Under the pieces are notes generated by a model. That model did no database searches. It was not told the DNA's origin and worked only from the letters and a program-made list of their open reading frames with translations. From Chitinophaga lutea (GTDB lineage Bacteria > Bacteroidota > Bacteroidia > Chitinophagales > Chitinophagaceae): a DNA stretch of 64,000 bases. Shown here in pieces: positions 7,401 through 36,787 of the stretch. Each line of letters opens with the position of its first letter. Positions within the stretch are counted from its first letter, which is position 1. The stretch is taken from contig NZ_RPDH01000002.1 of the NCBI RefSeq assembly GCF_003813775.1, positions 1,302,001-1,366,000 of the forward strand. Reading direction: 5' to 3'. A program made the translations under genes and the position numbers.

Positions 7401-7827
7401 CGCCGATCAGCTCCGTGCCGTTTTCGCCGGTCACCTTGCCTTTCACCGTGATGTTTTCCTGCTGCGCGGGAGAGATCACCACCAGCCCGTCTTCCAGGAT
7501 GCGGTATGTGAGCGCCTTGCTGCGCAGCACCTGGTCGAGCACCACGGGCAGCGTGGCGTTGTTGAACTTCACGTCCACCTTATCTCCCACCGGGAATGTT
7601 TTGATGTTATATAAAAAGCGGTAGTTGCTTTTCGTTTCTATCCAGTCCAACAGCTTTTGCAATTCGATTTGTTTGCTTTCGATAGAGAAACGGCTCTGCG
7701 AATAACCTTCCGCCCGCAGCTGCAGGATGAAAACGGTCATCAGAATCAGGCATAGCTTCATAACTAACAGTGTTTTTCGCACTAAATGCTTGGGAATTGC
7801 TGGTTGAAAACGCAGCGTTTTTTTCAT
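4492..7827 (-). CDS. SusC/RagA TonB-dependent outer-membrane transporter with STN domain, locus 1
   Basis: The start is set at the ATG at 7825-7827 (MKKTLRF), which is preceded by CAAAAGT as at the other two susC genes here; the frame is open to 7890. About 1111 residues: signal anchor, STN domain at about 35-95 (the part that touches FecR), carboxypeptidase-like regulatory beta-sandwich at about 125-195, TonB plug (VVVLGYGQ..., LFIRGINTTG, LVVIDGLPRG, SILKDASATALYG) and a 22-strand barrel to the end. The STN domain indicates transenvelope signalling to FecR and the ECF sigma factor upstream. It forms the import channel with SusD. Confidence 0.95.
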   Translation of the reverse strand: MKKTLRFQPAIPKHLVRKTLLVMKLCLILMTVFILQLRAEGYSQSRFSIESKQIELQKLLDWIETKSNYRFLYNIKTFPVGDKVDVKFNNATLPVVLDQVLRSKALTYRILEDGLVVISPAQQENITVKGKVTGENGTELIGVSIQLKGTSKGTTTDDKGNFTLQVPPNGVLVISYVGHEPQEVPVNGKAQLPAIQLKPSAAGLNEVVVLGYGQKQVRQSITGAISSIQTKELKQSPVANLTNALAGRLPGLVTVQHSGRPGSDYSQLFIRGINTTGATNPLVVIDGLPRGNADLGQLDANEIESVSILKDASATALYGIQGANGIVLVTTRRGQEGPPNIQINMQTATQQPVTFPRFLNSYRSGLLQNEAAKNDGLQPVWSEQELEYFRTGLKPYDYPNVDWYEEMIRKNSPQKALNVNINGGSKYVRYFVSGSYLRQEPLYKHSSDNAYGVKYKYDRFNFRSNVDITLDQNTDLQVDLASRLENRTSPSADRAGHEFFWVLLSQMTNHLTPVKNPNGSIASGNMREDFYNLYGVLTRNGYLDAYWHSTSGSVALTRKLDFITPGLKVKGLFTFENYGDINVAFDQEFDSYRYKPEPGTSGGLYTQHRAATSLQRSGYNSGQRYYYYDMKLMYDRDFGKHSFSGLFLFNRNYRSQSGDLPRVYEGYVGRVAYNYNKKYYLEFNAGYNGSENFPTGNRYGFFPAASAAWMISNENFMPKSSALSFMKLRFSHGYVGNDQIGFARWLYISDFSRGDGFTFGSVASGVGGYYENRIGNTAITWEKAAKTDIGLETGFFKDRVKLNVDVFRELRSDILTAAGSIPSYLGITASLNRNMGRIINRGIEADLHVNAQIGQVGVFTKMNYQYVKNKILEMDEPKLEYAHQSQVGLPIGYGLGYVAEGLFQSKEEIAKSPKQTFSPLIPGDIKYRDIDGNNIINDADRVMLPMLNVPTSYFGATFGLDYKGFDISALFQGALGGRQIYSAQLVFNYRESYRPIHEGRWTPETAATATFPALHLSESNMANNYMNSSYWIRKTDYLKLKNLEIGYRLPRHWTNRVKIKNARIYLNGMNLVSWDNVRELGIDPESNAGDRWGWQPYPIMRVYNAGITINL

Positions 7828-7840
7828 ACTTTTGGTTTGA

Positions 7841-7934
7841 GTGTTGAACAATTGAAACAAATAGCTTCCCGCACGGAAATTATGTTTCATTCCATGTTTG
7901 ACATGAAGGGGAGTGTAGCAGCACTTCCCTTTTT
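7841..7934 (+). ncRNA. Candidate cis-antisense RNA over the susC leader, locus 1
   Basis: On the plus strand a TTG box (7804-7806), a 20-base spacer and TACTTTTG (7827-7834) match the Bacteroidota promoter pattern and overlap the susC start codon. About 100 bases on, AAGGGGAGTG (7906-7915) pairs with CACTTCCCTT (7922-7931) around the loop TAGCAG and is followed by T residues to 7934, a plausible intrinsic terminator. No plus-strand gene exists here to need one. The implied RNA of about 94 bases is complementary to the susC 5' leader. The 5' part (GGTTTGAGTGTTGAACAAT) resembles the equivalent region of locus 3. The alternative is a structured susC mRNA leader. Ends are estimates. Confidence 0.42.
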
Positions 7935-8010
7935 CATTTGGCTGGAACCGGCTGTGCTAGCCCGGCATGGCGGAGTTGGCGAATCGAATCATAGCTGTAT
8001 TTTTGGTTGA

Positions 8011-9006
8011 CTAATGCTGAATAAAAACGGTATCTCCCTTGATATCATACGTGAAATCTGCGGTCAGTTGCAGGGCTTTCAGCGCCCTTTGGATGTCTTC
8101 TTTGCGGAATTCCCCTGAAAAACGGTTGTCATTTAAAGCGGTGTCCTGTATAACGATGCGTTTGTTGAACCAGCGTTCCATGATTTTGGCCAGTTCCCCG
8201 AAGGATTTGTTTTTGAATTGCAGGCGGTCGTTGCGCCACATGCTTTCGCCAACGGGACTGTCGTTTACCGGTTTGGCCTCCAGCACTTCCGCGGCAAATT
8301 CGCCCCAATCCTGCTGGCCGGCCGGTACGACGCCTTTTTTACGGGTCAGCAGCAGTTTTTCGCCGGGGCTCAGGAGCTGGCGCTTTCCGGGGTCGCGGAG
8401 GAGGTTGACGGCCACTTTTCCTTCCACCAGGGTGGTTTCGAGGCTGGCGTCTTCAGGATAGGCCCTGAGGTTGAAGGCCGTGCCGAGCACCTGTACGCTG
8501 AGGTCGGCCGTCCGGATAACGAAGGGGTGTTCGGTTTGGGGGGCCACTTCAAAATACCCTTCCCCCCGGAGCTGCACCGTCCGCTGGCCGTTGTGCATAT
8601 CCCTGGCATATTCCAGGCGGCTGCTCACATTGAGCCACACGCGGGTACCGTCGGGCAGGGTAATGGTCGTGCGCTCCCCTGCGGCTGTCTGCACCATTTC
8701 CATGGCCGGCTGGCGGAAGAGCAGCCAGGCGCCCGTCCCGATAGCCAGTACCAATACGGCGGCAGCGGCCGTCCACCAGCGGGTGCGGATACGCCGGACG
8801 GGCGTTTCCACCCACTCCCCTTCCTGCTGCAACTGCTCTACCATGTTGCGGTATACGGCTTCCAGTGCGGGAGCCGTGTTGGGCATACCGGCGGCGTGGC
8901 GGGATTCAAACCGGCCGTACCAGGTTTCTACGGCCTGTTTTTCTTCTTCCGTACATTCGTTCCGGAGGTATTTGTCCAGTAACTGCAGCAGTTGTTGATG
9001 GTCCAT
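8011..9006 (-). CDS. FecR-type anti-sigma factor, locus 1
   Basis: Start chosen at the ATG at 9004-9006 (MDHQQLLQLLDKYL), which begins the typical FecR N-terminal helix bundle; the frame is open to 9033. About 331 residues: cytoplasmic sigma-binding part (1-85), one transmembrane helix near 95-112 (AAAAVLVLAIGTGAWLLF), periplasmic FecR domain (ERTTITLPDGTRVWLN... GYFEVAPQTEHPFVIRT... VLGTAFNLRAY) and a C-terminal DUF4974-like/STN-contact region ending FSGEFRKEDIQRALKALQLT. It relays occupancy of SusC to the ECF sigma factor, which is divergently transcribed 102 bases away. Confidence 0.92.
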   Translation of the reverse strand: MDHQQLLQLLDKYLRNECTEEEKQAVETWYGRFESRHAAGMPNTAPALEAVYRNMVEQLQQEGEWVETPVRRIRTRWWTAAAAVLVLAIGTGAWLLFRQPAMEMVQTAAGERTTITLPDGTRVWLNVSSRLEYARDMHNGQRTVQLRGEGYFEVAPQTEHPFVIRTADLSVQVLGTAFNLRAYPEDASLETTLVEGKVAVNLLRDPGKRQLLSPGEKLLLTRKKGVVPAGQQDWGEFAAEVLEAKPVNDSPVGESMWRNDRLQFKNKSFGELAKIMERWFNKRIVIQDTALNDNRFSGEFRKEDIQRALKALQLTADFTYDIKGDTVFIQH

Positions 9007-9108
9007 GAGGGTGCTTATGTATAGTAAAGACACGGCACCTTCTTCCCACCCTACCCCTTTTCCGCATATTTTTATCCGTATCGTGATTTTTCTGCTATTT
9101 TTACGGGG

Positions 9109-9696
9109 ATGGCTTACACCACACTGTCTGACAAGGAACTACTCACGCTGCTGGCCGGGAATGACAATCAGGCGTTCGAGACGCTGTACCGGCGCCATGC
9201 GGACGCCCTCTACCAGGCTGCGTACCGCAAGCTACCCGTTCCCCACCTCGTGGAAGACCTGCTGCAGGAAGTGTTCGCCAACCTTTACCGCAAGCGGGCC
9301 GAACTGGGCGACATCGACAACATCAAAGCCTATCTCTACAACGCCCTCCGCTACCGCATCCTCAACGAACTGCGCAATTCCCTGCTGCACGCCGAACATC
9401 ACCGGAAGCTGCCGGCCGACACCGCAGCCGAGGCTGTTATCCGCTACGACCTGCAGCAGCTGGAGAAACGTTTCGCCGGGGCGCTGGAGCAACTGACGGA
9501 GCGCAGCCGCGAAATATTCCTCCTTTCCCGCCGCGACCATCTGTCGTATAAAGAGATTGCCGACCGCCTGGGAATTTCCGTGAAAGCCGTTGAAAAACAC
9601 ATGAGCCGCTCGCTGCAGGTGATGCGGCACGAGCTGAAGGATTACGGGTTGTCCGGGGTGGCATGCCTCGCCGTGGCGCAGTATCTTTTGCAATAA
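9109..9696 (+). CDS. ECF RNA polymerase sigma-70 factor, locus 1
   Basis: A 195-residue ECF sigma factor. Region 2 is at about 10-80 (AFETLYRRHADALYQAAYRK, DLLQEVFANLYRKR, IKAYLYNALRYRILNELR), and region 4 at about 130-185 (LTERSREIFLLSRRDHLSYKEIADRLGISVKAVEKHM). A hydrophobic tail follows (SGVACLAVAQYLLQ). Unlike the other two loci, where sigma and fecR are co-directional, this gene is divergent from its fecR, so the shared 102-base gap at 9007-9108 should hold both promoters. It is expected to direct transcription of locus 1 when FecR releases it. Confidence 0.93.
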   Translation: MAYTTLSDKELLTLLAGNDNQAFETLYRRHADALYQAAYRKLPVPHLVEDLLQEVFANLYRKRAELGDIDNIKAYLYNALRYRILNELRNSLLHAEHHRKLPADTAAEAVIRYDLQQLEKRFAGALEQLTERSREIFLLSRRDHLSYKEIADRLGISVKAVEKHMSRSLQVMRHELKDYGLSGVACLAVAQYLLQ

Positions 9697-9703
9697 AGGG
9701 CAT

Positions 9704-9730
9704 AAAAAAAGGCGCGGTTGCCCACGCCTT
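9704..9730 (-). terminator. Strong minus-strand intrinsic terminator with GCAA tetraloop
   Basis: On the minus strand AAGGCGTGG (9722-9730) pairs with CCGCGCCTT (9709-9717) around GCAA, a GNRA tetraloop, followed by a T tract (9704-9710). On the plus strand nothing T-rich follows, so it is not an obvious terminator for the sigma gene that ends at 9696. It implies a transcript arriving from the right on the minus strand, where there is no protein gene. Confidence 0.75.
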
Positions 9731-9957
9731 GGCGATCCCCCCAAGGATCTCGTCTGTAATGCAGTACAAGCCCCAACTTGTTACTGCGTGTCTGGTTTAT
9801 CACATGAAGGACACAGTAAACTTTCCTGAATAATTGTTGCAGCGAATCCCCAGGGGATGCATGACACCCTCCCGCACCGCATGCGCTGACCTGCCGGGCG
9901 ATACCACCTGCACTACATGGGCAGTGAGATGTCCATACGCCGGTTAGCTATCACCGT

Positions 9958-9987
9958 TTTGATTAAATAAACTGGAAATTAAATTTG
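9958..9987 (+). promoter_or_regulatory. Bacteroidota-type promoter, plus strand
   Basis: TTTG (9958-9961), an 18-base spacer and TAAATTTG (9980-9987) match the TTTG / TAnnTTTG pattern. It points toward the esterase gene at 10337, which would give a leader of about 340 bases. It lies inside, and opposite to, the candidate minus-strand RNA. Confidence 0.4.
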
Positions 9988-10098
9988 CTTTTCATACCCT
10001 GTTCATCGTTTCACGCTGCCGGGCGGCTTTACACAGTGCCGGCGTGCTTCTTCTATTTGGATGAATTGTTCTTCTATGCGACAGTTAAATGCTCCGGA

Positions 10099-10128
10099 CA
10101 AATATATCACCTGCGGTTTAAATTTCAA
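10099..10128 (-). promoter_or_regulatory. Bacteroidota-type promoter for the minus-strand RNA
   Basis: On the minus strand TTG (10126-10128), a 19-base spacer and TATATTTG (10099-10106) form a near-consensus promoter. The expected start is near 10093. A LacI-like operator half overlaps the upstream box. Confidence 0.45.
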
Positions 10129-10137
10129 TCGTTTGCA
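10124..10137. promoter_or_regulatory. Imperfect LacI-family operator
   Basis: TTCAATCGTTTGCA differs at two positions from the perfect palindrome TGCAAACGTTTGCA found at 62840-62853 in this window. It overlaps the upstream box of the minus-strand promoter and lies 200 bases before the esterase gene, so it could govern either. Confidence 0.4.
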
Positions 10138-10336
10138 TGAATATTCTGCCGGTTTCCGGGCGCAATTGTCAAGAAAGCATAGATAGTGGTCAAAATAATT
10201 GAGATGCCATCAGGGGCAAATGAAAAACTACACGTTTCCGGGGATTGCACGGGCCGCGGGAAGGCCGTATCTTTTGCGGGTAAAGATTGATATTTTACGG
10301 TTATCATCAACGGCCGGCTTATTATAAACACAATCC

Positions 10337-11119
10337 ATGAAACGTATTTCCACCTTCTTAACGCTGATTGCGCTTATCATCATTTCAGTGCAGCCTGTTG
10401 CGGCGCAGCCGTCCCAACCGGATCCCGATTTCCACATTTACCTGCTCATCGGCCAGTCGAACATGGCCGGCCGGGGTAAAGTGGACTCCATCAGCAAGCT
10501 GTCGCGCCCACGCATATTGATGTTCGACAGTACGCGAAAGTTCGTTCCCGCCACGGACCCGCTTCACTTCGATAAAAAAGTGGCCGGTGTGGGACCGGGC
10601 CTCAGTTTCGCCGATCATATGCTGCCGGCCGGGGGCCGTATCAAAATCGGATTGGTGCCGGCGGCGGTGGGCGGCACTTCTATTAAATCGTGGGTACCCG
10701 GGGGATTTGACTCCGCAACGAAGACGCATCCGTACGATGAGGCGATGGTACGCATCAAAGCCGCTTTACGGTATGGCGTGCTGAAAGGGATACTCTGGCA
10801 CCAGGGCGAGGCCAACTCCGGTGGTTTTGCGCAAAGCCCTACCTATATTACACAATTACAGGCCCTGGTGGCCCGGTTAAGGTCTGAGCTCAATGCGCCC
10901 GATGTTCCTTTTGTAATGGGTGAACTGGGTTACTTCCGGCCGAAGTTCAGGAATTTTAATGCCATGCTGCAACAGGTGCCGGACAGCATCCGCAACATCA
11001 CCGTTGTGAGCGCGCAAGGTCTGGGGCATAAAGGCGACACTACGCATTTCGATACGCAGGCGGCGCGGGAACTAGGAAAGAGATTTGCCGTCGGGATGAA
11101 GCAACTGCAGCAGAAGTGA
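10337..11119 (+). CDS. Secreted CE6-type carbohydrate esterase (SASA/SGNH fold)
   Basis: A 260-residue protein with a signal peptide ending VAAQ near residue 24. Block I is IGQSNMAGRG at about 38-47, with the nucleophile Ser in GQSNMAG; ILWHQGEANS at about 155-164 carries the second signature; HFD near 239 supplies the Asp/His part of the triad. This pattern is the sialic-acid 9-O-acetylesterase/acetyl-xylan esterase superfamily (CE6), which removes acetyl groups from polysaccharides. It stands alone on the plus strand. A LacI-like operator lies 200 bases upstream. The substrate is unknown; deacetylation to prepare a glycan for the neighbouring hydrolases is an inference. Confidence 0.82.
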   Translation: MKRISTFLTLIALIIISVQPVAAQPSQPDPDFHIYLLIGQSNMAGRGKVDSISKLSRPRILMFDSTRKFVPATDPLHFDKKVAGVGPGLSFADHMLPAGGRIKIGLVPAAVGGTSIKSWVPGGFDSATKTHPYDEAMVRIKAALRYGVLKGILWHQGEANSGGFAQSPTYITQLQALVARLRSELNAPDVPFVMGELGYFRPKFRNFNAMLQQVPDSIRNITVVSAQGLGHKGDTTHFDTQAARELGKRFAVGMKQLQQK

Positions 11120-11566
11120 TCAGTCTTCGAAAGGCTTCGTTGCATACACCCCCATGATCAGGGCATTGATGTCTTCTTCCCCGAGGCCGTGCTCCTCCTC
11201 TTTCTTCCGCATCCATTCCTGTATCTGTTCCAACGCCTGCGGCGCTTCTACCCCGGCCTGCATTTGTTCCGCCGTGAGCTGAAAGGGCGCGCCGATCAGC
11301 AGGAAGGCGCTTTCCGGGAGCAGTTGCGCTTTCACCTCTTCCGTTACCGCGCAACTGAGCACGGGCTCATCGCCGTTTACCAGTTCGAGGTGATGGCCCG
11401 CTACCCTGCCCCATAAGTCGGTAGCGGACACGTAAAAAAACACGTCTCCTTCATACACTTTTCCGCCGATGTCCTTCAATACCGGCGTGGCAAACATGAT
11501 GCCGTCGGGCACGAATAAATAAGGAATTTTTCCAATCAGACCGGTAAAACAATGTTCGTTCATCAT
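11120..11566 (-). CDS. Hypothetical protein, 148 residues
   Basis: I do not recognise a family. The frame is open up to 11680, but that stretch contains the terminator of the next gene (11624-11664), so I place the start at the double ATG at 11561-11566 (MMNEHCFTGLIGKIPYLF). The protein is soluble and acidic, with no signal peptide. The middle reads like a beta-rich domain (GDVFFYVSATDLWGRVAGHHLELVNG), and the C-terminus is helical and charged (LEQIQEWMRKKEEEHGLGEEDINALIMGVYATKPF). Its stop codon abuts that of the convergent esterase gene. Confidence 0.7.
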   Translation of the reverse strand: MMNEHCFTGLIGKIPYLFVPDGIMFATPVLKDIGGKVYEGDVFFYVSATDLWGRVAGHHLELVNGDEPVLSCAVTEEVKAQLLPESAFLLIGAPFQLTAEQMQAGVEAPQALEQIQEWMRKKEEEHGLGEEDINALIMGVYATKPFED

Positions 11567-11623
11567 GATGGGTTTTAACAATCCTGCGATGAGGTTTCCG
11601 GTTGAAAAATACGAATAATCCGG

Positions 11624-11664
11624 TAAAGAAAAGCCTGTCTCGCAATCGCTGCTCGACAGGCCTT
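11624..11664 (-). terminator. Intrinsic terminator closing locus 2
   Basis: AAGCCTGTC (11631-11639) pairs with GACAGGCCTT (11655-11664); on the minus strand it is followed by TTTTCTTT. It ends the locus 2 operon 30 bases past the DUF4998 gene, and it argues against a longer start for the gene at 11120. Confidence 0.78.
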
Positions 11665-11692
11665 CCACCTTGCAATCCAATTTATCAATCTG

Positions 11693-12778
11693 TCATTTCA
11701 TCGTCAGCACTTCATCAAAAGCCGTGCGATGTGTGGTGCCGGGCTGGTTCATCCAGTATTTCACCCGCAGCACCTTGGTAGCAGGATCGAATTTATTGAC
11801 GCCGGAGGGGTCCAGCTCGGCCGACCGGCCATTGGAGGCGGGCTGGCCATGTTTGTTGACCACGCTGATCACATTGTACCGGGCATCGAACAGCAGCACC
11901 GCCCCGAAGGAACCATAGGTAGAATTAGCCCCGTTGTTTTGCAGTTTGTGCAGCACGTCTTTGCTGAAATCGTCGTCTACCATTTCCAGCTGCCGGAGGG
12001 TGCCCTGGCGCAACGTCACATTCCAGGGGTATGGACCGGTAAGGCTTGCGCTGGTAAAGTCCACCATGGTGCCCGTGCATACGTATTGCCCGTTGGCAAG
12101 GTTGATCTCCTGTGATTTTTCCGCAAAGAACGTATCGATTCCTTTTTCCGGCACGTAAGCCGTCCGGAATGTGATGACATCCACCAGGGGATCGATATCC
12201 TTAAGGGTATCTTTCAGTGCGGCGGTATTGCTTATTTTGCGCTGTACAGGCGCCTGCATGGTATTCCTGTAGGTGGCAACGGTGTATTTGCAGGTAGTGT
12301 CCACGGAAGAAAAGTCGAGCGCCATACCTTTGCGGCAGTTCATCGTTGCTACTTTCCGTATGAACAGTTCGGCTTCAAAAGCGCTGCCGAGCGCGCGGCC
12401 ACTGACCAGCGCCGAACCGGGCGTGGATGAATTACCGGCTTTATCGTACGCCACGATCTCGAAGGTATAGTCGCCCTCGGTGAGGCCGGTCACCAGCGTT
12501 TTCTGCACCACATTTGCCTTGTCGGGCTGTACTTCCAGCTTTTTCTGGCGGTTGTTCCAGTAGATGATGTATTTGACAGTATTCGGGTCTTTAGATTGGG
12601 TAAACTGAATTTCCACCCTTTCCCTGCCGGAATGGACCTCCAGCTGATACGGCGCGCCCAGGTAAATGATTTCCCCGTTTTCAAGGTAAGGCGCGTAGGT
12701 ATGATCCATTTTCGTGCAGGCAAACAGGGCCATCAAAGGTATCAGCAGTTTGATATATGTCAGCTTCATGAAACGCAT
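11693..12778 (-). CDS. DUF4998-type lipoprotein, locus 2
   Basis: A 361-residue lipoprotein; the signal starts at MRFMKLTYIKLLIPLMALFAC (a second ATG at 12769 is as good), with lipidated Cys near 21. The N-terminal half (MDHTYAPYLENGEIIYLGAP, VHSGRERVEIQF, DPNTVKYIIYWNN) is the DUF4998 pattern, a fibronectin-like module found almost only beside SusC/SusD in Bacteroidota. The C-terminal half looks like a beta-sandwich with TYGSFGAVLLFDARYN. It follows the DUF5000-type gene by 19 bases and ends the operon. A glycan-binding SusE/F-like role is presumed, not shown. Confidence 0.8.
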   Translation of the reverse strand: MRFMKLTYIKLLIPLMALFACTKMDHTYAPYLENGEIIYLGAPYQLEVHSGRERVEIQFTQSKDPNTVKYIIYWNNRQKKLEVQPDKANVVQKTLVTGLTEGDYTFEIVAYDKAGNSSTPGSALVSGRALGSAFEAELFIRKVATMNCRKGMALDFSSVDTTCKYTVATYRNTMQAPVQRKISNTAALKDTLKDIDPLVDVITFRTAYVPEKGIDTFFAEKSQEINLANGQYVCTGTMVDFTSASLTGPYPWNVTLRQGTLRQLEMVDDDFSKDVLHKLQNNGANSTYGSFGAVLLFDARYNVISVVNKHGQPASNGRSAELDPSGVNKFDPATKVLRVKYWMNQPGTTHRTAFDEVLTMK

Positions 12779-12797
12779 TTAATTCGATGAGAAAATA

Positions 12798-15959: not shown

Positions 15960-18900
15960 TTATTTGACGGAAAGCGTCACCCCTGCGTTGATCACACGCT
16001 GTATGGGATAACCGAGGCCGTTGCCGCCCATTTCAACGTCCCAGAGGTTAAACTTGCTGAACGTAAACAGGTTGACGCCGTTGACGTAAAAGCGGGCGTT
16101 GGACAGGCGCAGCCGTCTCATCAGCTGATCTGGCAGGGTAAACCCGAGTTCGGCCGACTTGATCCGCAGCAGCGCGCCGTTGCGCATGAACCAGGTACTC
16201 GTCTGGATATTGTTGGCATTTTCGTCCACGCTCAGGCGCGGCCACAATGCATAAATATTACGGTTGTCTTCGCTCCAGTGATTATCCGCCCACACTTTCA
16301 ACAGCTGGCGCTGTTCTCTGACGAACGGCGATGTGCTCTTGGCGTCGATCCAGAATGATTCCCTGGCCAGTCCCTGGAAGAAAATGGAGAAATCGAAGCG
16401 GCCGTAGCCGGAAGAAATGCCGAAGCCGTACACGATCTCCGGCGCGGAAGGAAACCCTATCGGCGCCTGGTCCAGCTCGGTAATCCTGCCGTCGCCGTTG
16501 ATATCGCGGTATTTGATATCTCCGCCGCCATATGGCCCGAAACTTTGCCGGGGTGAATTCCGGGCATCCAGGTCGTCAACAAAAAGGCGCTCTGCGATAT
16601 ACCCCCAGTTTTGGGAAAGCGACCGGCCTACGTGCAATTTGTTTTTTTCCTTGTATTCCGGTTCTTCGTATACGTCAAACCGGCTGGTGGCATAGGTAAA
16701 ATTGGCCATGCCCTTTGCCCACCACTTGCTGTTGAGCCGCTGTGAAAAATCGATGGCCACTTCGAAACCCTGCGACTGCGCTTTGCCCACATTCGCCCGC
16801 GACACAGCGCTGAGGCCCATCGTAGTGGGAATAGACGCGCGGTCCATCAGGATGTTGCTGCGCCTCTCCTGCCACATGTCCATATCGATATTGAGTTTGC
16901 CGAGAATGGACGTTTCGAAACCCAGATTGGTTTTGCCCGCCTTTTCCCAGGAGATGTTGTTGTTGGCGTACCGGGATATGTCGATGCCCGACAGCGTGTA
17001 ATCTTTCAGCGTGCCGAATCGCATGCCCCGGTCGCCGCTGTTCATGTTTACGTTCGACAGGTAAAAGAACCGGTCTGTCGGCGAGCCGATGGCGTCGTTA
17101 CCTACCAGGCCGTATGTTGCCCTGAGTTTCAGTTTCGGCACGATGCGCCTGATCGGCTCCCAGAAATCTTCGTTGGAAACGGTGTACCCTACCCCGGCTG
17201 AAGGGAAAAAGCCGAAGCGGTGGCTTTTATGGAAACGTTCGGAGCCATTGTAACCGAAGTTGAACTCCAGCGCATACCGGCTGTCGTACACATAATTCAC
17301 CCTGCCGGAAAGGCCCACATTGCGGAAGGGCAGCGAGCTCTGCAGTGAGCCCGCGTTGCCCACCAGGCTGTTTTTGGCGATCCCCACCAGCGTAGCGCCC
17401 ACGCTATGGATCTTGTTGAATACGCGACCGTAGTCCAGCGCCAGTTCACCATAAAAGTCGGCGGACAGTACCTTCTCACCTTCCTGGTAATCGAGATATT
17501 CCGTACCTGCCGGCGCCTGCGACTGCCCGGCTTCGAGGTTGATGGGCCGGATGGAATATCCTTTGGTAGCGTAATCGTAATTATAAGCGATGTAATAAAA
17601 CGGGTTATAGGCCCGGTTCACGGCAAAAGATCCGTTTCGCTGCAGGTTGACCATACCGCGGGCAGAGAGCCCCTGCGTCACAAAATCCAGTTTCTGGCGC
17701 ATGCCTACCTGGGCGTTGATGTTGAAGCGGCTCGATTGCCGATAGCCTTTTTGCAGATCCGAGTAGGGATTATTGTACTGGCCATCCGCCGAGTTGCCGA
17801 ACATAATATGTTTAACATACCGTGTTTCGTCTGTTGGCTCGTAGTAGGCAGGAAACAGCACGGAATTGGATTCCATGATCTGTTTGTAAATATCCGCGCC
17901 GCCGGCCAGCGGACCGGAATAGTCGTCGAAAGAACCGGAGAGGCGCGCGGTCATTTCCGTGGTAGACGTGAGGTTCAGGTTGATATTGCTTCGCAGCGAA
18001 TAAGACCGCAGCCGGGAATTGCTATTGAAATTGCTTTTCCTGTCTACTTTCAAAATGCCGTTATCGATATTCATGGCGCCGGACACGTAGTAACGGGCCA
18101 CCTTCCCGCCACCGCTCAGGCTGAGGTTATAGCGCTGGTTGTTGGTCGATTTTTTCAGCAGTTTTTCCTGCCAGTCGGTAGACGGGAACACCACCGGATC
18201 GAGGCCCTTACGGGTATTTTCGATTTTGTCTCTTGAATACAACAACCCTCCCAGCGGGTTCCTGGTCAGCACCGCTTCGTTGGCCAGTTCCATGTATGTC
18301 ACGGGGTCGGCCAGTTCCACGTTGCGGGTGGATTGCGATAATGAGTTCTCGGCGCGGAACGAAAGGTTTACGCTTCCTTCGCGTCCTTCCTTGGTAGTGA
18401 TGAGGATAACGCCGTTGGCGCCTTTCGACCCGTAGAGCGCTGTAGCCGTAGCATCTTTCATGATCGAAAAGCTGGCGATATCATCCACCTGCAGCCGCGC
18501 CAGATCTGTAGAAGAGGCTTCGATGTTATCGATCAGTATCAGGGGCGATTTCCGGTACCCGAAGGTGGTAACGCCCCTTACGAAAAAGTCTGCGTTATCG
18601 AATCCGGGTTCGCCGCTTCGCTGGAATGCGATGATACCGGCGAGTTTGCCTGCGAGGGCGTTGGTGAGATTGCTGACAGGGATTTTCAATTCGCCCGGCT
18701 TGATGCTCGTAACAGCGCCTACCACTTCCGTTTTTTTCTGACGGCCATGCGCCACTACCACCACCTCATCCACTTTACCTTCAGCCGGCCGTAGTATGAT
18801 GTTCATCACGCCGTTGGTGGTAATGGCCACTTCCAGCGGCTCAAAGCCGATGAACGACACCTGCAGCACGCCTCCTTTCGCCGGCGCTTCAATGGTGAAA

Positions 18901-19409
18901 ACGCCGTTGGCATCCGTGGCCACGCCCTTGGTGGTGCCTTTGATCTTTACCGTAGCGCCCGGCAGCGGGATGCCCTTATCATCCGTCACCCGGCCTTTTA
19001 CTTCCATCCGCTGTTGCTCTTCCGCGGCAACAACGGCAGTGGCCTGTGCAGCTACCGTCGTAATGATGATCGTTTGCTGTGAAATCGCATACCCCAGCGG
19101 CCGGCCCCTGAAACAATGTTTCAGTGCCTCTTCCAGCGGCATGTTCCTGATGTCGATATCGATTTTGCCTGCATTGTTCAGCACTTCATCTTCATAAAAG
19201 AACTTCATCTGTGTTTGCCGGTTGATCTCCTTAAAGATCTTTTTCAGCGGCACGTTCTTCCCTTTCAGCGTTACGTGCTGGCTGTAACTTCCAGCGCTCA
19301 CCTGCATGCAGATACCCAATAAAAAAATGCCTGTCAGCTTCATAACTAAATGTGTGTGGAACCATTTTCCCCGCCCGGGCGGGAAGGAGAATTGTAACTT
19401 TAAATGCAT
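15960..19409 (-). CDS. SusC/RagA TonB-dependent transporter with STN domain, locus 2
   Basis: A 1149-residue transporter. The ATG at 19407-19409 is preceded by GCAAAAGT, as in the other two susC genes. Domains in order: signal anchor (1-40), STN (about 45-115, KNVPLKKIFKEINRQTQMKFFY), carboxypeptidase-like sandwich (about 137-210, VKGRVTDDKGIPLPGATVKI), plug (EVVVVAHGRQKKTEVVGA, FFVRGVTTFGYR, LILIDNIEASS, SIMKDATATALYGSKGANG) and barrel. The plug phrase LILIDNIEAS replaces the usual VVIDG, a mild variant. The STN domain pairs it with the adjacent FecR for signalling. Confidence 0.95.
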   Translation of the reverse strand: MHLKLQFSFPPGRGKWFHTHLVMKLTGIFLLGICMQVSAGSYSQHVTLKGKNVPLKKIFKEINRQTQMKFFYEDEVLNNAGKIDIDIRNMPLEEALKHCFRGRPLGYAISQQTIIITTVAAQATAVVAAEEQQRMEVKGRVTDDKGIPLPGATVKIKGTTKGVATDANGVFTIEAPAKGGVLQVSFIGFEPLEVAITTNGVMNIILRPAEGKVDEVVVVAHGRQKKTEVVGAVTSIKPGELKIPVSNLTNALAGKLAGIIAFQRSGEPGFDNADFFVRGVTTFGYRKSPLILIDNIEASSTDLARLQVDDIASFSIMKDATATALYGSKGANGVILITTKEGREGSVNLSFRAENSLSQSTRNVELADPVTYMELANEAVLTRNPLGGLLYSRDKIENTRKGLDPVVFPSTDWQEKLLKKSTNNQRYNLSLSGGGKVARYYVSGAMNIDNGILKVDRKSNFNSNSRLRSYSLRSNINLNLTSTTEMTARLSGSFDDYSGPLAGGADIYKQIMESNSVLFPAYYEPTDETRYVKHIMFGNSADGQYNNPYSDLQKGYRQSSRFNINAQVGMRQKLDFVTQGLSARGMVNLQRNGSFAVNRAYNPFYYIAYNYDYATKGYSIRPINLEAGQSQAPAGTEYLDYQEGEKVLSADFYGELALDYGRVFNKIHSVGATLVGIAKNSLVGNAGSLQSSLPFRNVGLSGRVNYVYDSRYALEFNFGYNGSERFHKSHRFGFFPSAGVGYTVSNEDFWEPIRRIVPKLKLRATYGLVGNDAIGSPTDRFFYLSNVNMNSGDRGMRFGTLKDYTLSGIDISRYANNNISWEKAGKTNLGFETSILGKLNIDMDMWQERRSNILMDRASIPTTMGLSAVSRANVGKAQSQGFEVAIDFSQRLNSKWWAKGMANFTYATSRFDVYEEPEYKEKNKLHVGRSLSQNWGYIAERLFVDDLDARNSPRQSFGPYGGGDIKYRDINGDGRITELDQAPIGFPSAPEIVYGFGISSGYGRFDFSIFFQGLARESFWIDAKSTSPFVREQRQLLKVWADNHWSEDNRNIYALWPRLSVDENANNIQTSTWFMRNGALLRIKSAELGFTLPDQLMRRLRLSNARFYVNGVNLFTFSKFNLWDVEMGGNGLGYPIQRVINAGVTLSVK

Positions 19410-19422
19410 ACTTTTGCTTTTT

Positions 19423-19554
19423 ACCCGCCGCGGCTTGGTGCCTGGCGGGTGTTTGGATTTGAGAATAAACTTTCTTTCCTGAGATGGTTTTACGGCATTT
19501 TAGCCGGTTCAACCCAAACGAAGAGCCGTTCCGTCTCGCACACGGGACGGTTTT
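19423..19554 (+). ncRNA. Candidate cis-antisense RNA over the susC leader, locus 2
   Basis: TACTTTTG (19409-19416) on the plus strand overlaps the susC start codon. No clear upstream TTTG box lies at the usual spacing. ACCCGCC (19423-19429) pairs with GGCGGGT (19444-19450) to give a 5' hairpin. CCGTCTCG (19531-19538) pairs with CGGGACGG (19543-19550) around CACA and is followed by TTTTCTATTTTG, a plausible terminator. The layout repeats that of loci 1 and 3, although the sequence is mostly different and the RNA would be longer, about 130 bases. The alternative is a structured element in the fecR-susC mRNA. Confidence 0.35.
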
Positions 19555-19575: not shown

Positions 19576-20742
19576 TTATTGAATGACTGTAATGTTCCTT
19601 CCTGTTATTTCAAACCGGACGCCCGCCAGCTGCATGAACTGCAACACCTCTGCAATGCTGCTGTTCCTGCTGACGACGCCTGAAAACCGACGGTTAACGG
19701 TGTTCCCCCTGTAAGTAATGTCTACATCGTACCACCGGCTGATTTGCCGCATGATGTCGGGCAGGGCGAGGTTCTCGAAGTGGAACAGGCCGTTTTTCCA
19801 GGCCATCACTTCATCGAGGTCAACAACACCTTCCGCCTTCCGGAGGCCGGCGCCTGCAATGGCCTGCTGCCCAGGTTGAAGGGTAATGTTTTCGCACCCG
19901 TTTGCAACGCTGACGGCTCCTTCGAGGAGTGTTACGCTGGTAGCCGCTTCGTCTTCATAGGCATGGATATTAAAATGGGTGCCGTGCACCATTACGGTGG
20001 TACCGCGCGCCTCTACCTCAAATTGCACCGCGGGGTTCCTGGCCACTTCAAAATATACTTCGCCGGTAATCTCTACAGTGCGTGTTCCTTTGAACACAGT
20101 GGGGAAACGAATGGATGAGGCCGCATTCAGATATGCCCGGGAGCCGTCGGGCAGCATCACTGCATACACGCCGCCCTTCGGGGTGGATATTTTATTGTAG
20201 CGCATTTCGTCGTTGGGCTCGCCGGTAACACGATAGGCAAGCATGCCGTTTTTCAGTTTGGAAACCGCCGCAGCGCCTTGTTGTGCGAGCATGCCGTTGT
20301 CCGCACTGTCGAGCTGCACGATGGCGCCGTCACTTAAAGTCAGTATTGCTTTTTTTCCGCCAGGCACAATCATCGACGACACCGCGGTTATGGACGCATC
20401 GTTTGGCGCCGGCGCAACGGGCGTCTTTAAGAAGAACCATCCACCGGCAAATACTGCAACAAGGATAGCAGCGGCGGCGGCCGTTCGCCACATCAGGCGG
20501 AAGGTCCGTGTGTTTTTCCGGCCGGCCAGCATCAGCGTGGCGAACATCTTATTCCGTTGCGCGGCATCCGTTTGCCCGTCGTAACGACCGGACTGCAGAT
20601 CGGCCAGAATTTTCGCCGCAGCAGCCTGTTCATGTTCCGGCAAACGGTCGCAGAACGCCTGTAGCTCCGCTTCTGACAGTGTACCTGCCGCGTATCCTTC
20701 CAATAACTGATTAAAATCCGGTGTACCCCTTTTTGCGTCCAT
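19576..20742 (-). CDS. FecR-type anti-sigma factor, locus 2
   Basis: A 388-residue single-pass membrane protein. The N-terminal cytoplasmic part (1-85) contains DFNQLLEGYAAGTLSEAELQAF. The membrane helix is at about 88-108 (AAAAAILVAVFAGGWFFL). The periplasmic FecR domain (KAILTLSDGAIVQLDS, VMLPDGSRAYLNAASSIRFP, GEVYFEVARNPAVQFEVEARG, HGTHFNIHAYED) has an insertion of about 50 residues before the second DGS motif, as in the longer Bacteroidota FecR form. The C-terminal region (FSGVVSRNSSIAEVLQFMQLAG) contacts the STN domain. It lies 21 bases after the sigma gene. Confidence 0.92.
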   Translation of the reverse strand: MDAKRGTPDFNQLLEGYAAGTLSEAELQAFCDRLPEHEQAAAAKILADLQSGRYDGQTDAAQRNKMFATLMLAGRKNTRTFRLMWRTAAAAAILVAVFAGGWFFLKTPVAPAPNDASITAVSSMIVPGGKKAILTLSDGAIVQLDSADNGMLAQQGAAAVSKLKNGMLAYRVTGEPNDEMRYNKISTPKGGVYAVMLPDGSRAYLNAASSIRFPTVFKGTRTVEITGEVYFEVARNPAVQFEVEARGTTVMVHGTHFNIHAYEDEAATSVTLLEGAVSVANGCENITLQPGQQAIAGAGLRKAEGVVDLDEVMAWKNGLFHFENLALPDIMRQISRWYDVDITYRGNTVNRRFSGVVSRNSSIAEVLQFMQLAGVRFEITGRNITVIQ

Positions 20743-20763: not shown

Positions 20764-21369
20764 TCATATATAAAGACACCGGAAAAAATCCAGTGTACCA
20801 GCGCACAATAAAAAAAAACCGATTTCACCATCGTGCTTCCTGACATAGTCACGGATAAACAGCATAGCCCGGAAAAGGTGGTTGCGCACAGTGTTGCGGG
20901 AAAGTTTCAGCTGGTCGGCCACTTCATTCAGTTTCAGCCCGTGGCGCTGGTTGAGCTGGTAAATCATACGCTGCCTGGGAGGCAGGCGCAGTACGGCTTC
21001 TTCAAGTACAAGCTGCGATTCTTTTTGCATGTATGCTGTTTCCGGGGCGGGCGTAAAGCTGTCCGACAATTCCTGGTGACGCTTCATGCAGGCCTTTTCC
21101 CTGGCAATGCCCCGCAGCAGGTTCAGGATATGATTTCGGGTCATAATGAAAATGTAATCGTGCAACCGGGTAACCGTATGCAGGCTCTCCCGTTTCGTCC
21201 AGATTTTCAGGAAAATATCCTGCACCACTTCTTCCGACATCTCGGAAGACTTCGTGTACGTATACGCCACGCCGAACACCCTGTCTGAATACTGTTCAAA
21301 CAGTTGGCGGAATGCGGTTTCATCCCCCGCGGCTATCTGCTGCCGCAATGTATCGTTGCAGGGATTCAC
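20764..21369 (-). CDS. ECF RNA polymerase sigma-70 factor, locus 2
   Basis: A 201-residue ECF sigma factor of the Bacteroidota FecI-like group. Region 2 is at about 15-90 (AFRQLFEQYSDRVFGVAYTYTK, EEVVQDIFLKIWTKRESL), and region 4 at about 125-180 (RLPPRQRMIYQLNQRHGLKLNEVADQLKLSRNTVRNHL). The C-terminal tail is hydrophobic (GFFLLCAGTLDFF). It begins the locus 2 operon. The upstream DUF5054 gene ends only 55 bases away on the same strand, so read-through from the glycosidase transcript is possible. Confidence 0.93.
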   Translation of the reverse strand: MNPCNDTLRQQIAAGDETAFRQLFEQYSDRVFGVAYTYTKSSEMSEEVVQDIFLKIWTKRESLHTVTRLHDYIFIMTRNHILNLLRGIAREKACMKRHQELSDSFTPAPETAYMQKESQLVLEEAVLRLPPRQRMIYQLNQRHGLKLNEVADQLKLSRNTVRNHLFRAMLFIRDYVRKHDGEIGFFLLCAGTLDFFRCLYI

Positions 21370-31085: not shown

Positions 31086-31100
31086 CTGTAAATAACCGGA

Positions 31101-31544
31101 TTATTTGATGAGCGTCAGCTGGAGCGTCCAGGTGTTTTTGGTAACACCATCGGCAGCCGTCACTTCATAGGAAGCGGGTTTGGAATAATCGCCGGGCGTA
31201 CCGAGTGCCGGTGAACCGTTCACCGGTTTGATGGAAGCGGCGGTAGACACATCGCACATTCCCACGATGTTGGCGGCGGAAACACCGTTGCGGACCGCTG
31301 CGGTAAAATTACCGGCTGCGGCCGGCACCGTGGTGGTGACGGCAATGGTTTTGCCGTTCACCACCGGTGCGGCGGTATTAAAACGTATGACGCGGAAAGT
31401 GCCGTTGTCGTTCCAGCGGTATTCAAAGTCGAACCGTGTAATATTGGCGCCTTTAAATGCCGGCAACTCGTCAAGCCCTTTTTTGAGGCACGACGACAGC
31501 AGGCCCGTTACAGCGACCAATATGATCAGCAAGTATTTTTTCAT
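31101..31544 (-). CDS. Small lipoprotein accessory, locus 3
   Basis: A 147-residue lipoprotein: signal MKKYLLIILVAVTGLLSSC with lipidated Cys19, then a compact beta-rich domain (ITRFDFEYRWNDNGTFRVIRFN, GKTIAVTTTVPAAAGNFT, SYEVTAADGVTKNTWTLQLTLIK). The closing phrase, in which added material is described as extending a known quantity, resembles the DUF5018-like modules found after SusD in Bacteroidota; this assignment is tentative. It is the last gene of the locus 3 operon, 28 bases after susD. Probably a surface glycan-binding accessory. Confidence 0.72.
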   Translation of the reverse strand: MKKYLLIILVAVTGLLSSCLKKGLDELPAFKGANITRFDFEYRWNDNGTFRVIRFNTAAPVVNGKTIAVTTTVPAAAGNFTAAVRNGVSAANIVGMCDVSTAASIKPVNGSPALGTPGDYSKPASYEVTAADGVTKNTWTLQLTLIK

Positions 31545-31572
31545 ATCCTTTGAGTTGAATCAGTTTAATAAA

Positions 31573-33267: not shown

Positions 33268-33291
33268 GTAGAATTTTTTGATTGATGAAAA

Positions 33292-36200
33292 CTAGAACCC
33301 TATGTTCAGCCCTACGGAATACACTTTCTGCACTGGATAGCCATAGTTGCTTTCGTCGCTGGTTTCCGGATCGAAATAGTCCTTTACCGGCGAGAAAGTG
33401 AGCAGGTTGGTGCCATTCAGCGTAACCAGGCAGCTGTTCAGGAAAGCCAGTTGCCGCGGGAACTGCTTTTTGGCATCGAAGGCGATACGCAGGCTTTTCA
33501 GACGGAGGTAACGCGCATCATAGAGCCAAAAATCGGAAGCGGTGCCGCCCGGCGCATAGTTGTTATTCCCATTGCGGTCCGACGACAATGCCTGTCGCGG
33601 GAAACGGGCCTCCCTGTTGTCGGGCGTCCAGAAATCGCGCTGGAAGTCATATACCAGGAAGTTTGCGGAATACGCCGTGAGCGAGCCTTGCAGCCGCACA
33701 GTGCGGGTACCGGTGCCCTGCCACAACATCTCCACGCTGAACGCCTTCCAGGTCGCTGACATGTTCATCCCGAACGTGAGCGCGGGGAAACGCTGTTTGC
33801 CGATGCGGGTGGCGTCGTTGCCGTCAATCTTTCCGTCGCCGTTGGTATCCTCATAGCGGATGTCGCCAGGCGTCAGCTGTCCGCCGGGCGTATAGCGGGG
33901 ATGATTGATGATGTCGTCGACCGACTGGTAATACCCCTGGTTGTGAAGCCCGTTGCCCCAAACAAATGTAGCGTGGGTGCGGCGGTTCTTCGGGTTCTTG
34001 AGCGACACGCTGTCCTCACTGTCGTCACGCTCCCACAGTTCGTTGTACATCGTAAGGTTACCGCCTACCTGGTACTGGAAATCCTTGCCCGCCCTGTCGG
34101 CATAATTGAGCTGGAATTCCATACCATGGCGCCGGAAAGCGGAGTTGGACGATGCATAAGGAAGACCGGTGCCGAGTGGCGTGGTATACCGTGCCGCGGA
34201 ATTGATGATATAGCCGGTGGTCCGTTTGTAAAAATAATCCACGCTGCCGCTCAGGCGATTGCGCAGCAAAGCGAAGTCGAGGCCCGTGTTGTAATCGCGG
34301 GTGGAGTACCACGACAATACGAACCTGTCTACCAGGCTACCTTCCCTGAACCCGATCATCGGATTGCCGCCAACCACGTAGGCATTTTCTATGAGGGAGT
34401 AGCTATTCAGCAGGTAGGGGAAACGCACGGCATTACCGGCGGGATCCCGCACATCGTCATTGCCCACTGTAGCGATTGTATAGCGCAGCTTGAACTGGTC
34501 GAAGATTTTTTTGAAGGGGAAGAACTCTTCGTCACTGGCCACCCATCCGAGCGACAGCGAGGGGAAGAACCCCCATTTGCTGTTGCGTTCGCGGGGAAAG
34601 CGGTCTGAACCGTCGTAACGGAAGCTGCCCTCGATGATGTATCGCGCATCGTAGTCGTATTTCAGGCGGCCCACATATCCGCGACGCCCGCCTTCAGCGG
34701 CGCTGCCGCCATTGACGAGGCCATTGTTGCTGCCCGCGAAAAGCTGATCCACAGCGGAAGAGGGAAAATTGATACGCCTGGCCGACAATTGTTCCGCCAT
34801 ATCTTCGCTTTCCTCATACAGCGCCAGCACATTCACCGCATGTTTGCGGAAACTACGCTGGTACTCGATGCGTGCCTGCAGCGTGGTACTTTGCGAGCGA
34901 TCCGATATCTCGTCCAGGGAAGGCGGCGTGCGGTATTGTTCGATGCCCAGGTTGTCGAATTGTGGTGCGCGGGTATACCAACCTTTCCGGAAGCGGTCTT
35001 CTATTTTGTAATACCCCAGCACGCCGGCTTTGAGCCCCTTTACCCAGGGTACCTGCCAGTCGAGCGTCAGGTTGCCGTTCACGTTCCGGAACTCATCGCG
35101 GCGGTAACCCGAACGGGGATCGATGTCTACGAGCGGATGATCAACACCCGCTGCATAAGTCCCGTCTTTGTTATAAGCCATTTTAAACGGGGGACTGTTT
35201 TGCAGGTGGCTCCATATTTCGAAAGCGCTGGCACCGGGAAACCCGTTATTGGTGAGCGTAGCATACATGTTAGCGCTGGCGGTGATGCCCTGTTTGTCGA
35301 AGTGCTGGGTAACGCTGGCACGGGCGTTATACCGTTTGAAGCCGGTTACATCCGTTTTGTAGTTGCTATGTTGATTGAAATAGGCTAGAGAAAGAAAGTA
35401 TGTTGTTTTATCGGAGCCTCCGCTTACGTCGAGGCTGTATTTCGTTTGCGGCGTGTAATTGCGCAGGGTCATATCGTACCAGTCGTTATCCTGCCACACA
35501 TAGGGATCTTTTTTGTTCAGGATGGTATCGAGCCTGCCCGGGGAGTACACGGCCGGCTGATTATCCGCGGCCGCGGCTGCATTCTGCGCCAGCGCAAAGT
35601 TGTAGGCGTTGACGCGTTTCGGCAATACCGTCGGTTTCGAAAACTCGGTGAGCACCCCGAAGTTGATACTCACTTTTCCGGCGCGGCCGCGCTTGGTGGT
35701 AACGAGGATGATGCCGTTGGCGCCGCGTGCACCGTACACGGCCGTGGCACCACCGTCTTTCAAAATCGAAATGGCTTCGATATCTTGCGGCTGGAGGTTC
35801 TGGAAATCAAACCGCGACGATACCACGTTGTCGATTACGAACAACGGGCCGCCCCTGTCCGGGCCCGAACCGCCGCGAACGGCAATCCTTGCCGAGCCTA
35901 CGCCCGGTTCGCCGCCCGAGCTCATGGTGATCACACCCGGGGCGCGGCCGGCCAAAGCATCGGCCATATTGGAGAAAGGCAGCGTGGTCATCTTATCTGT
36001 TTTGATGGTCGACACCGCCGTTACCAGCTTGCGCCGGGTGTCGCTGCCGTAACCTACCACCACCACCTGTTCCAGTGCGCTGGCAGATACCTTCAGCCGC
36101 ACGTCCATGGGTGTGGCAGCGGCTGCCAGCTCCTGCGGTTCGTAACCGATCAGTGAGAAAATGAGTGTAGCCCCTTCCGGAACGTTCAGTTCGAAGGCGC

Positions 36201-36681
36201 CGGTTTCGGACGTGGTGGTGCCTCCCGGCCCGTTTTTCTGCCTGACGATTGCCCCTACCAGCGGGGCTCCCGACGTATCTTTCACCGTGCCCCTGACAAT
36301 AAGGTAGCGCATGGCGCCCGGCTCATGGGGACCAATTACCACCAGTTCCGGCGACTTCAGGGTAAAGGAAAGCGGGGTGCCTTCCAGCACGCGCGTCAAC
36401 ACTTCTTCCACTTTCGCGTTGTGCACGGAAAGGGTCACCTGCTTATCCGGCGGCAGGAGATCATCGTTGTAAATAAAACGGAAAGAGCTACGCTGTTCGA
36501 TCATTCGAAGCGCGTCCTTGAGGCTTGCCTGGTCGAAGCGCAGCGAGATTCTCCGTTGAGAGAACCCGGCCTGTAACTGAAGGCAGGCAAGCAGCAGCAG
36601 GAAAGTAATCTTCATAACTTTGATGCACTGGGTGATAGCAGGCCGGTACGGCAAGCCGCAGGTCCTGTGTGTTTTTTTCAT
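33292..36681 (-). CDS. SusC/RagA TonB-dependent transporter with STN domain, locus 3
   Basis: A 1129-residue transporter; the ATG at 36679-36681 is preceded by CCAAAGGT, matching the other susC starts. Domains in order: signal anchor (1-41), STN (about 45-115, RISLRFDQASLKDALRMIEQRSSFRFIY), carboxypeptidase-like sandwich (about 128-205), plug (EQVVVVGYGSDTRRKLVTAVS, IAVRGGSGPDRGGPLFVIDNVV, SILKDGGATAVYGARGANG) and barrel. The locus contains no hydrolase of its own; GH110 and the propeller protein just beyond the terminator are the natural partners. Confidence 0.95.
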   Translation of the reverse strand: MKKTHRTCGLPYRPAITQCIKVMKITFLLLLACLQLQAGFSQRRISLRFDQASLKDALRMIEQRSSFRFIYNDDLLPPDKQVTLSVHNAKVEEVLTRVLEGTPLSFTLKSPELVVIGPHEPGAMRYLIVRGTVKDTSGAPLVGAIVRQKNGPGGTTTSETGAFELNVPEGATLIFSLIGYEPQELAAAATPMDVRLKVSASALEQVVVVGYGSDTRRKLVTAVSTIKTDKMTTLPFSNMADALAGRAPGVITMSSGGEPGVGSARIAVRGGSGPDRGGPLFVIDNVVSSRFDFQNLQPQDIEAISILKDGGATAVYGARGANGIILVTTKRGRAGKVSINFGVLTEFSKPTVLPKRVNAYNFALAQNAAAAADNQPAVYSPGRLDTILNKKDPYVWQDNDWYDMTLRNYTPQTKYSLDVSGGSDKTTYFLSLAYFNQHSNYKTDVTGFKRYNARASVTQHFDKQGITASANMYATLTNNGFPGASAFEIWSHLQNSPPFKMAYNKDGTYAAGVDHPLVDIDPRSGYRRDEFRNVNGNLTLDWQVPWVKGLKAGVLGYYKIEDRFRKGWYTRAPQFDNLGIEQYRTPPSLDEISDRSQSTTLQARIEYQRSFRKHAVNVLALYEESEDMAEQLSARRINFPSSAVDQLFAGSNNGLVNGGSAAEGGRRGYVGRLKYDYDARYIIEGSFRYDGSDRFPRERNSKWGFFPSLSLGWVASDEEFFPFKKIFDQFKLRYTIATVGNDDVRDPAGNAVRFPYLLNSYSLIENAYVVGGNPMIGFREGSLVDRFVLSWYSTRDYNTGLDFALLRNRLSGSVDYFYKRTTGYIINSAARYTTPLGTGLPYASSNSAFRRHGMEFQLNYADRAGKDFQYQVGGNLTMYNELWERDDSEDSVSLKNPKNRRTHATFVWGNGLHNQGYYQSVDDIINHPRYTPGGQLTPGDIRYEDTNGDGKIDGNDATRIGKQRFPALTFGMNMSATWKAFSVEMLWQGTGTRTVRLQGSLTAYSANFLVYDFQRDFWTPDNREARFPRQALSSDRNGNNNYAPGGTASDFWLYDARYLRLKSLRIAFDAKKQFPRQLAFLNSCLVTLNGTNLLTFSPVKDYFDPETSDESNYGYPVQKVYSVGLNIGF

Positions 36682-36694
36682 ACCTTTGGTTGAG

Positions 36695-36787
36695 ATGGTT
36701 TGACAATAGATGCCCCTTCCCTTTGCAAAACGAAGGGCATCTGTACTGAAAACTTTCTTCAGGGGGATGTGTCAGCATTCCCCTTTT
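36695..36787 (+). ncRNA. Candidate cis-antisense RNA over the susC leader, locus 3
   Basis: TACCTTTG (36681-36688) on the plus strand overlaps the susC start codon; no good upstream box is seen. A strong hairpin follows, AGATGCCC (36708-36715) with GGGCATCT (36735-36742), extended by TTC/GAA. Then AGGGGGATG (36761-36769) pairs with CATTCCCCT (36776-36784) around TGTCAG, followed by T residues to 36787. The 3' hairpin is close in sequence to that of locus 1, and the 5' segment (GGTTGAGATGGTTTGACAAT) aligns with it too, so the two look like one family. Implied length about 93 bases. A conserved mRNA leader is the alternative. Confidence 0.45.

Follow-up and report, generated by a model that had tools for sequence, protein, structure and literature searches.

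The closest described counterparts of the candidates reported here are the DonS-type RNAs of Bacteroides, which the accessible text of PMC7366714 presents as a family of antisense RNAs of 78-128 nt encoded divergently to susC. The same text gives the Bacteroides promoter consensus as TAnnTTTG at -7 and TTTG at about -33, and reports a housekeeping (sigma-ABfr) promoter at half of the B. thetaiotaomicron antisense RNAs. In B. fragilis, DonS acts as a repressor of its PUL (PMC7366714, PMC11697453), by a mechanism that PMC11697453, in the part available, states to be unknown. For B. thetaiotaomicron, 32 PUL-associated antisense RNAs are described, whose correlations are negative in some cases and positive in others (PMC10994844, accessible part); because some of these asRNA-PUL pairs correlate positively, repression is not general. 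The accessible part of PMC10861873 adds counts only.

The candidates from Chitinophaga lutea resemble the DonS-type RNAs of B. fragilis and B. thetaiotaomicron in being short and encoded divergently, antisense to the leader of a susC homologue; they differ in lying outside Bacteroides, where DonS-type RNAs are known, and in being predicted from sequence. A likeness also exists to FopS and GibS, which together with RbpB exert post-transcriptional control at the susC start region in B. thetaiotaomicron (PMC11697453, accessible part), but these are trans-encoded paralogs, whereas the C. lutea candidates pair with their own locus only. The loci further resemble FecI/FecR-type control of susC by an ECF sigma factor and its anti-sigma factor, with sigma, FecR and SusC at each locus (and an STN domain in the SusC of loci 2 and 3), to which the predicted antisense RNA would be an additional layer. 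We consider it likely that each such susC locus carries a cis-antisense RNA gene of about 95 nt under a housekeeping-sigma promoter, the product being a predicted locus-by-locus repressor of susC. RNAs of the DonS kind are already known; a promoter placed on the susC start codon, and an arrangement of this breadth, were not found described in the literature searched, the coverage of which was partial, so that an earlier report is possible.

Three sigma/FecR/SusC loci in the window

The window, the whole stretch of DNA analysed, comprises 64,000 nt within the 6.6 Mb genome of C. lutea and holds three loci at which Pfam matches bear out the sigma factor, FecR and SusC identities assigned in an earlier sequence-only reading. 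Locus 1 has susC (4492..7827; Plug and CarbopepD_reg_2 domains, with a 22-residue extension ahead of an MKLCLIL signal peptide) and fecR (8011..9033) on the minus strand, and an ECF sigma factor gene (9109..9696; sigma-70 r2/r4) on the plus strand, divergent from fecR. All genes of the other two loci are on the minus strand: susC (15960..19409), fecR (19576..20742) and the ECF sigma factor gene (20764..21369) in locus 2, and susC (33292..36681), fecR (36854..37936) and the ECF sigma factor gene (37987..38544) in locus 3, the STN domain of both SusC proteins being found at an E value of 1e-5.

On the plus strand, a TAnnTTTG box overlaps the susC start codon of every locus, precisely where the sequence-only reading had placed it: TACTTTTG at 7827..7834 in locus 1 (minus-strand ATG 7825-7827), TACTTTTG again at 19409..19416 in locus 2 (ATG 19407-19409), and TACCTTTG at 36681..36688 in locus 3 (ATG 36679-36681). 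In all three, box and start codon share one base pair, read as the first T of the box and, on the minus strand, as the A of the ATG. The box fits the -7 element of the housekeeping promoter of DonS-type RNAs at all three loci, and a TTG of the -33 type is visible at locus 1 only (7804..7806, plus strand, 20 nt ahead of the -7 box, i.e., spacer 20), as had been remarked before. The start of the predicted RNA was set 12 nt past the first base of the box, an offset taken from Flavobacterium psychrophilum, in which a related box lies at -12 to -5 (PMC9723704, accessible part). On this basis the plus-strand antisense RNAs would span 7839..7934 at locus 1 (about 96 nt), 19421..19554 at locus 2 (about 134 nt, an outlier) and 36693..36787 at locus 3 (about 95 nt). 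The predicted start lies opposite susC position -12, within the A-rich stretch that is typical of positions -11 to -13 of other genes.

Each candidate has its own terminator on the same strand, as DonS-type RNAs do, so that box, predicted RNA and terminator are on the plus strand and susC on the minus strand in all three gaps. The terminators lie at 7906..7934 (hairpin 7906-7931, T residues 7932-7934), 19525..19554 (hairpin 19525-19551, T residues 19552-19554) and 36761..36787 (hairpin 36761-36784, T residues 36785-36787), which agrees with the earlier positions for loci 1 and 3 and corrects that of locus 2, in which the hairpin starts at 19525 and not at 19531. As to the earlier remark that no plus-strand gene needs these terminators, locus 1 does have a plus-strand gene, that of the sigma factor, but it begins about 1.2 kb past the terminator, which is therefore not its own. 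At locus 2 the terminator ends 142 nt from the susC ATG, and a nearer second hairpin ends at 19449. Because 142 nt is outside the range of 75-130 nt used below, loci 1 and 3 are regarded as typical and locus 2 as the weakest of the three.

TAnnTTTG occurs 12 times on the plus strand of the window, and 5 of these 12 boxes are followed by a strong terminator within 160 nt: those of loci 1-3 and the boxes at 9980 and 12325, in which the pairing is probably due to chance. None of the 14 occurrences on the minus strand is followed in this way, and the chance level is 87 of 800 random positions with a strong terminator within 160 nt. Folded as whole RNAs, the antisense strand reaches -34.8 kcal/mol vs -24.3 for the sense strand at locus 1, -58.9 vs -49.2 at locus 2 and -37.2 vs -31.6 at locus 3. 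An Rfam search of the window returned nothing at gathering cut-offs.

A start-codon box paired with an antisense terminator

The surroundings of susC and fecR were then analysed throughout the C. lutea genome. From 63 FecR places, 56 fecR-susC loci were obtained after leaving out one place near the fetched end and six without a nearby ORF of 700 codons. Only 56 of 195 susC candidates were scored and locus 3 of the window is absent from that list, indicating that some susC genes of the genome were missed. The box, written in the susC direction as (C/T)AAAnnTATG at the susC start, is present in 29 of the 56 fecR-susC loci, and its other strand is the Bacteroidota -7 element. CAAAnnTATG was found 24 times between fecR and the signal peptide (in 23 loci), every time in the susC frame (24/24), which indicates that translation also constrains the box and that the start codon belongs to the signal. 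Three more CAAAnnTA occurrences are without the following TG, and two of the three are out of frame. Both middle bases of the box vary freely, and the last base is A, not G, in 6 of the 29 boxes. The start codon and the G-poor susC leader are also under translation constraint.

We rejected TAnnTTTG as the usual translation start context of this genome: of 106 large ORFs, 30 carry (C/T)AAAnnT ahead of the ATG (C in 24, T in 6), compared with 4 among 424 other genes, and what generally precedes start codons here is a run rich in A at -11 to -13, without this box. The AAAnnT context also occurs in L049, a large ORF that is not part of the fecR set.

The box is closely linked to a terminator on the strand opposite to susC. 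Scoring a strong hairpin with a T-tract opposite the susC strand, with its end 75-130 nt upstream of the ATG, we found a strong antisense terminator in 26 of 29 box loci vs 1 of 27 fecR-susC loci without the box; among the controls, other genes gave 20 of 418 and dinucleotide shuffles 4 of 174, and a terminator on the susC strand itself was seen at 2 of the 29 box loci. Three box loci fall outside this definition, locus 2 of the window (142 nt) and two others, and with a looser cut-off an antisense hairpin with T residues is present in all 29, at 78-157 nt. The pairing of box and terminator is real and far from chance genome-wide. Assuming a start at +12 nt and about 4 nt added after the hairpin, 24 of the 29 candidates would fall within the 78-128 nt of the DonS-type family. 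That the hairpin is a shared operator is unlikely, as the stem sequences differ between paralogs.

The strand was read from stems found with a strand-symmetric score in which G.T and A.C count equally. The C. lutea and genus sets were picked on the box alone; the "Bacteroides-like" set, which includes genome G138 of family f70, and the "other families" set were preselected for an antisense hairpin (for the strand, box-base and TTG analyses). G.U pairs possible on the antisense strand only exceed those possible on the sense strand only by 22:3 in the C. lutea genome and 45:1 in the genus; in the preselected sets the bias is 26:1, and a weak 5:3 in the other-families set. U-tracts follow the antisense hairpin in 22 of 24 C. 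lutea loci vs 3 on the sense strand, and in 34 of 34 vs 2 in the genus. The sequence-only reading had named, as evidence against antisense RNAs, conservation that fits only mRNA folding or the susC translation start; the outcome is the opposite, since it is the antisense strand that carries both the G.U pairs and the U-tracts.

The -33 element was assessed in 73 loci that remained after removal of similar sequences, with spacers 9-17 and 22-30 as background. At spacers 19-20, 13 of 146 positions have TTG, whereas the background spacers have it at 17 of 1314 (Fisher p 1.6e-6); the 19-20 range was chosen post hoc after inspection of the data, though it is implied by the names -33 and -7. Other genes have no TTG excess at these spacers (13/848 vs 173/7632). 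With 13 matches in 73 loci, a recognisable -33 TTG is absent at most loci. Spaced tetramers were also used to look for an ECF promoter motif common to the regions ahead of susC, and gave A-rich words only.

These observations bear on the alternative in which the box is a susC-specific translation start and nothing else, the hairpin belongs to the leader of the susC mRNA and there is no antisense RNA. The in-frame ATG in all 24 cases, the translated extension that follows it and the G-poor sense leader are what such a reading would predict, yet we judge it very unlikely: the context is rare in other genes (4/424), the box predicts an antisense terminator, the G.U pairs and U-tracts of the hairpin are on the antisense strand, and TTG is enriched upstream in the antisense direction. 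Moreover, at two loci of the genus (L140 and L141) the box-like TAAAGATA lies directly before the ATG, yet the terminator is still 103-104 nt away.

Conservation, pairing and the predicted switch

Orthologous loci of the genus were compared in three groups, of 8, 7 and 6 sequences. The box is conserved at an identity of 0.89-1.0, the hairpin at 0.89-0.93 and the six T residues at 0.82-1.0, but the next 50 bases at 0.44-0.53; since identity falls past the U-tract, the conserved block ends at the predicted end of the RNA. Pairwise single-base codon differences in the translated extension, silent to replacing, number 75:71, 37:92 and 38:41 in these groups. As silent and replacing changes are both present, strong protein constraint on the extension is not supported. 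A search of the literature for extended signal peptides in this bacterial group, in the sources accessible, gave nothing evidently related.

For the first 30 nt of the predicted RNAs, pairing with the leader of the same locus averages -50 kcal/mol, as against -11.4 kcal/mol for the leaders of other susC genes and -11.3 kcal/mol for unrelated leaders; pairing at or below -14 kcal/mol is reached by 22% of other susC leaders and 21% of unrelated leaders. Other susC leaders are thus paired no better than unrelated ones, which makes each predicted RNA locus-specific, and a shared seed that cross-regulates other susC genes is unsupported (-11.4 vs -11.3 kcal/mol). Alternatively, the conserved susC start could be the target of trans-acting small RNAs, a suggestion prompted by the FopS family, which binds the translation starts of susC mRNAs in B. 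thetaiotaomicron (PMC11697453, accessible part). We hold this to be extremely improbable, because the box varies freely at its two central positions, like a -7 element and unlike a pairing seed, and because the linked antisense terminator would be left unexplained.

We favour the cis-antisense RNA, for which the following mechanism is proposed. The housekeeping sigma factor would recognise a promoter with TAnnTTTG as its -7 element, superimposed on the susC start codon. On the strand opposite to susC, transcription would start some 12 nt upstream of the ATG, cross the leader and end, before fecR is reached, at the intrinsic terminator some 100 nt upstream of susC. The product, about 95 nt long at most loci, would be complementary over its full length to the susC leader of its own locus. 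Bacteroidota ribosomes use the A-rich stretch directly upstream of the ATG. As long as the ECF sigma factor is held by FecR, the antisense RNA would pair with leaked susC leader, including the A-rich stretch by the ATG, and this pairing would block translation or expose the mRNA to decay. Once the sigma factor is released, strong susC transcription over the antisense promoter would silence the antisense RNA, resulting in a sharp switch at each locus; such mutual exclusion with ECF-driven susC transcription would follow from the location of the antisense promoter inside the susC transcript. The leader of the B. thetaiotaomicron susC BT_3983 computes to about 77 nt, since leader position 72 corresponds to -6 (PMC11697453, accessible part). 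If the leaders considered here are similar, the terminator hairpin would be situated around the susC transcript start and the two RNAs would overlap by about 65 nt. The RNA genes are well supported, as box, terminator, strand, distance, conservation and complementarity confined to the own locus are all read from the sequence; transcription, start site, repression and mutual exclusion are predictions.

It may also be asked whether the RNA, once made, has a role of its own, or whether the effect comes from polymerase blocking or collision on susC, or from the terminator shielding fecR. The promoter lies where susC is transcribed, and the end of the terminator comes before fecR; in addition, the middle of the predicted RNA is at 0.60-0.85 identity vs 0.89-0.93 for the hairpin in two of the three ortholog groups, and the positively correlated asRNA-PUL pairs of Bacteroides (PMC10994844, accessible part) would be in keeping with an effect of this kind. 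Nevertheless, the near-constant length and the complementarity just upstream of the ATG suit a leader-binding RNA, and DonS, whatever its mechanism, does repress its PUL (PMC7366714, PMC11697453, accessible parts), so that we regard a purely transcriptional effect as unlikely.

Spread of the layout in Bacteroidota

The sequence-only reading is supported, and the layout that it noticed at three loci recurs far beyond them, in the C. lutea genome, in the genus, in other families and in two Bacteroides genomes. For 24 further genomes of the genus, 64 loci were reduced by 6 without a tblastn match and 4 that were duplicates or near an end, leaving 38 distinct box loci and 16 without the box. A strong terminator is present at 37 of the 38. 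It is also present at 7 of the 16, where degenerate or shifted boxes occur, e.g., CTAAGATATG and TAAAGATAATG, implying that the box is looser than the pattern used or is only part of the signal.

From other genera and families 20 loci were retrieved, of which 19 could be used; three came from a different genus within the same family. Here the terminator was found in 8 of 10 box loci and in none of the 9 loci without the box. Genome G138 of family f70 has it in 12 of 13 box loci and 0 of 6 without. For Bacteroides cellulosilyticus DSM 14838 and Bacteroides sp. GM023, in which 83 FecR_C matches led to 30 loci fetched and 28 usable, the counts are 11 of 12 and 0 of 16. Left out of these counts are L321, L350 and L360 (no susC) and L309 (too short), together with seven genomes that represent further families of the order and whose SusC proteins are mostly without the N-terminal region.

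More tentatively, and with less than even confidence, we suggest a Bacteroidia-wide cassette at FecR-controlled susC genes, in which an antisense housekeeping promoter is fused to the start codon, the same ten bases encode both initiations as a built-in two-state switch, and the extension of about 22 residues before the signal peptide is kept at least partly for the promoter. If the predicted RNAs are real, one genome would carry about 29 locus-specific antisense RNAs on its nutrient transporters; the layout also occurs in gut Bacteroides, in which RNAs of this kind are known and their mechanism is stated to be unknown (PMC11697453, accessible part). The placement itself, with the promoter on the start codon, the RNA end just upstream and the terminator before fecR, provides a simple search rule for any Bacteroidota genome, and its exactness makes the mechanism testable through single-base changes.

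When one locus per genome was taken across the class, the box was present in 5 of 28 loci and the terminator in 2 of those 5; three of the five box loci duplicate places in the other sets. In most of the remaining class-wide loci, fecR and susC nearly adjoin.

SusC extension and sigma gene orientation

In SusC proteins whose gene start carries the box, (C/T)AAAnnTATG, an in-frame extension precedes the signal peptide, most commonly about 22 codons in length; it is present at box loci in this genus and in Bacteroides (examples of such susC start regions are window 7762-7827, 19344-19409 and 36616-36681). The extension may be a functional extended signal peptide, or it may merely host the predicted antisense promoter. 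At locus 1 (window 9028-9696), the ECF sigma gene lies on the plus strand and is divergent from fecR; at loci 2 and 3, the sigma gene lies ahead of fecR on the same strand.

Variant susC leaders

Three loci (L140, L141 and L294) retain a box-like element at a shifted position relative to the ATG: the near-identical L140 and L141 have TAAAGATA immediately ahead of the ATG, and L294 has CAAATGTA, with the ATG within the element. The antisense terminator is still present in all three, 103-116 nt upstream. Seven susC loci of the same genus (L089-L092, L096, L102 and L104) share the start context ATTCCATGTTATG and lack an antisense terminator; this context represents a second conserved type of susC leader.

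Further box matches

A fourth plus-strand CATACCTTTG, followed 115 nt further on by a weak terminator-like hairpin (12325-12443 for the two together), sits within a minus-strand ORF (11693-12778), and the combination is probably due to chance. One large ORF (L049), outside the set of fecR loci, likewise has CAAAAATATG at its start.
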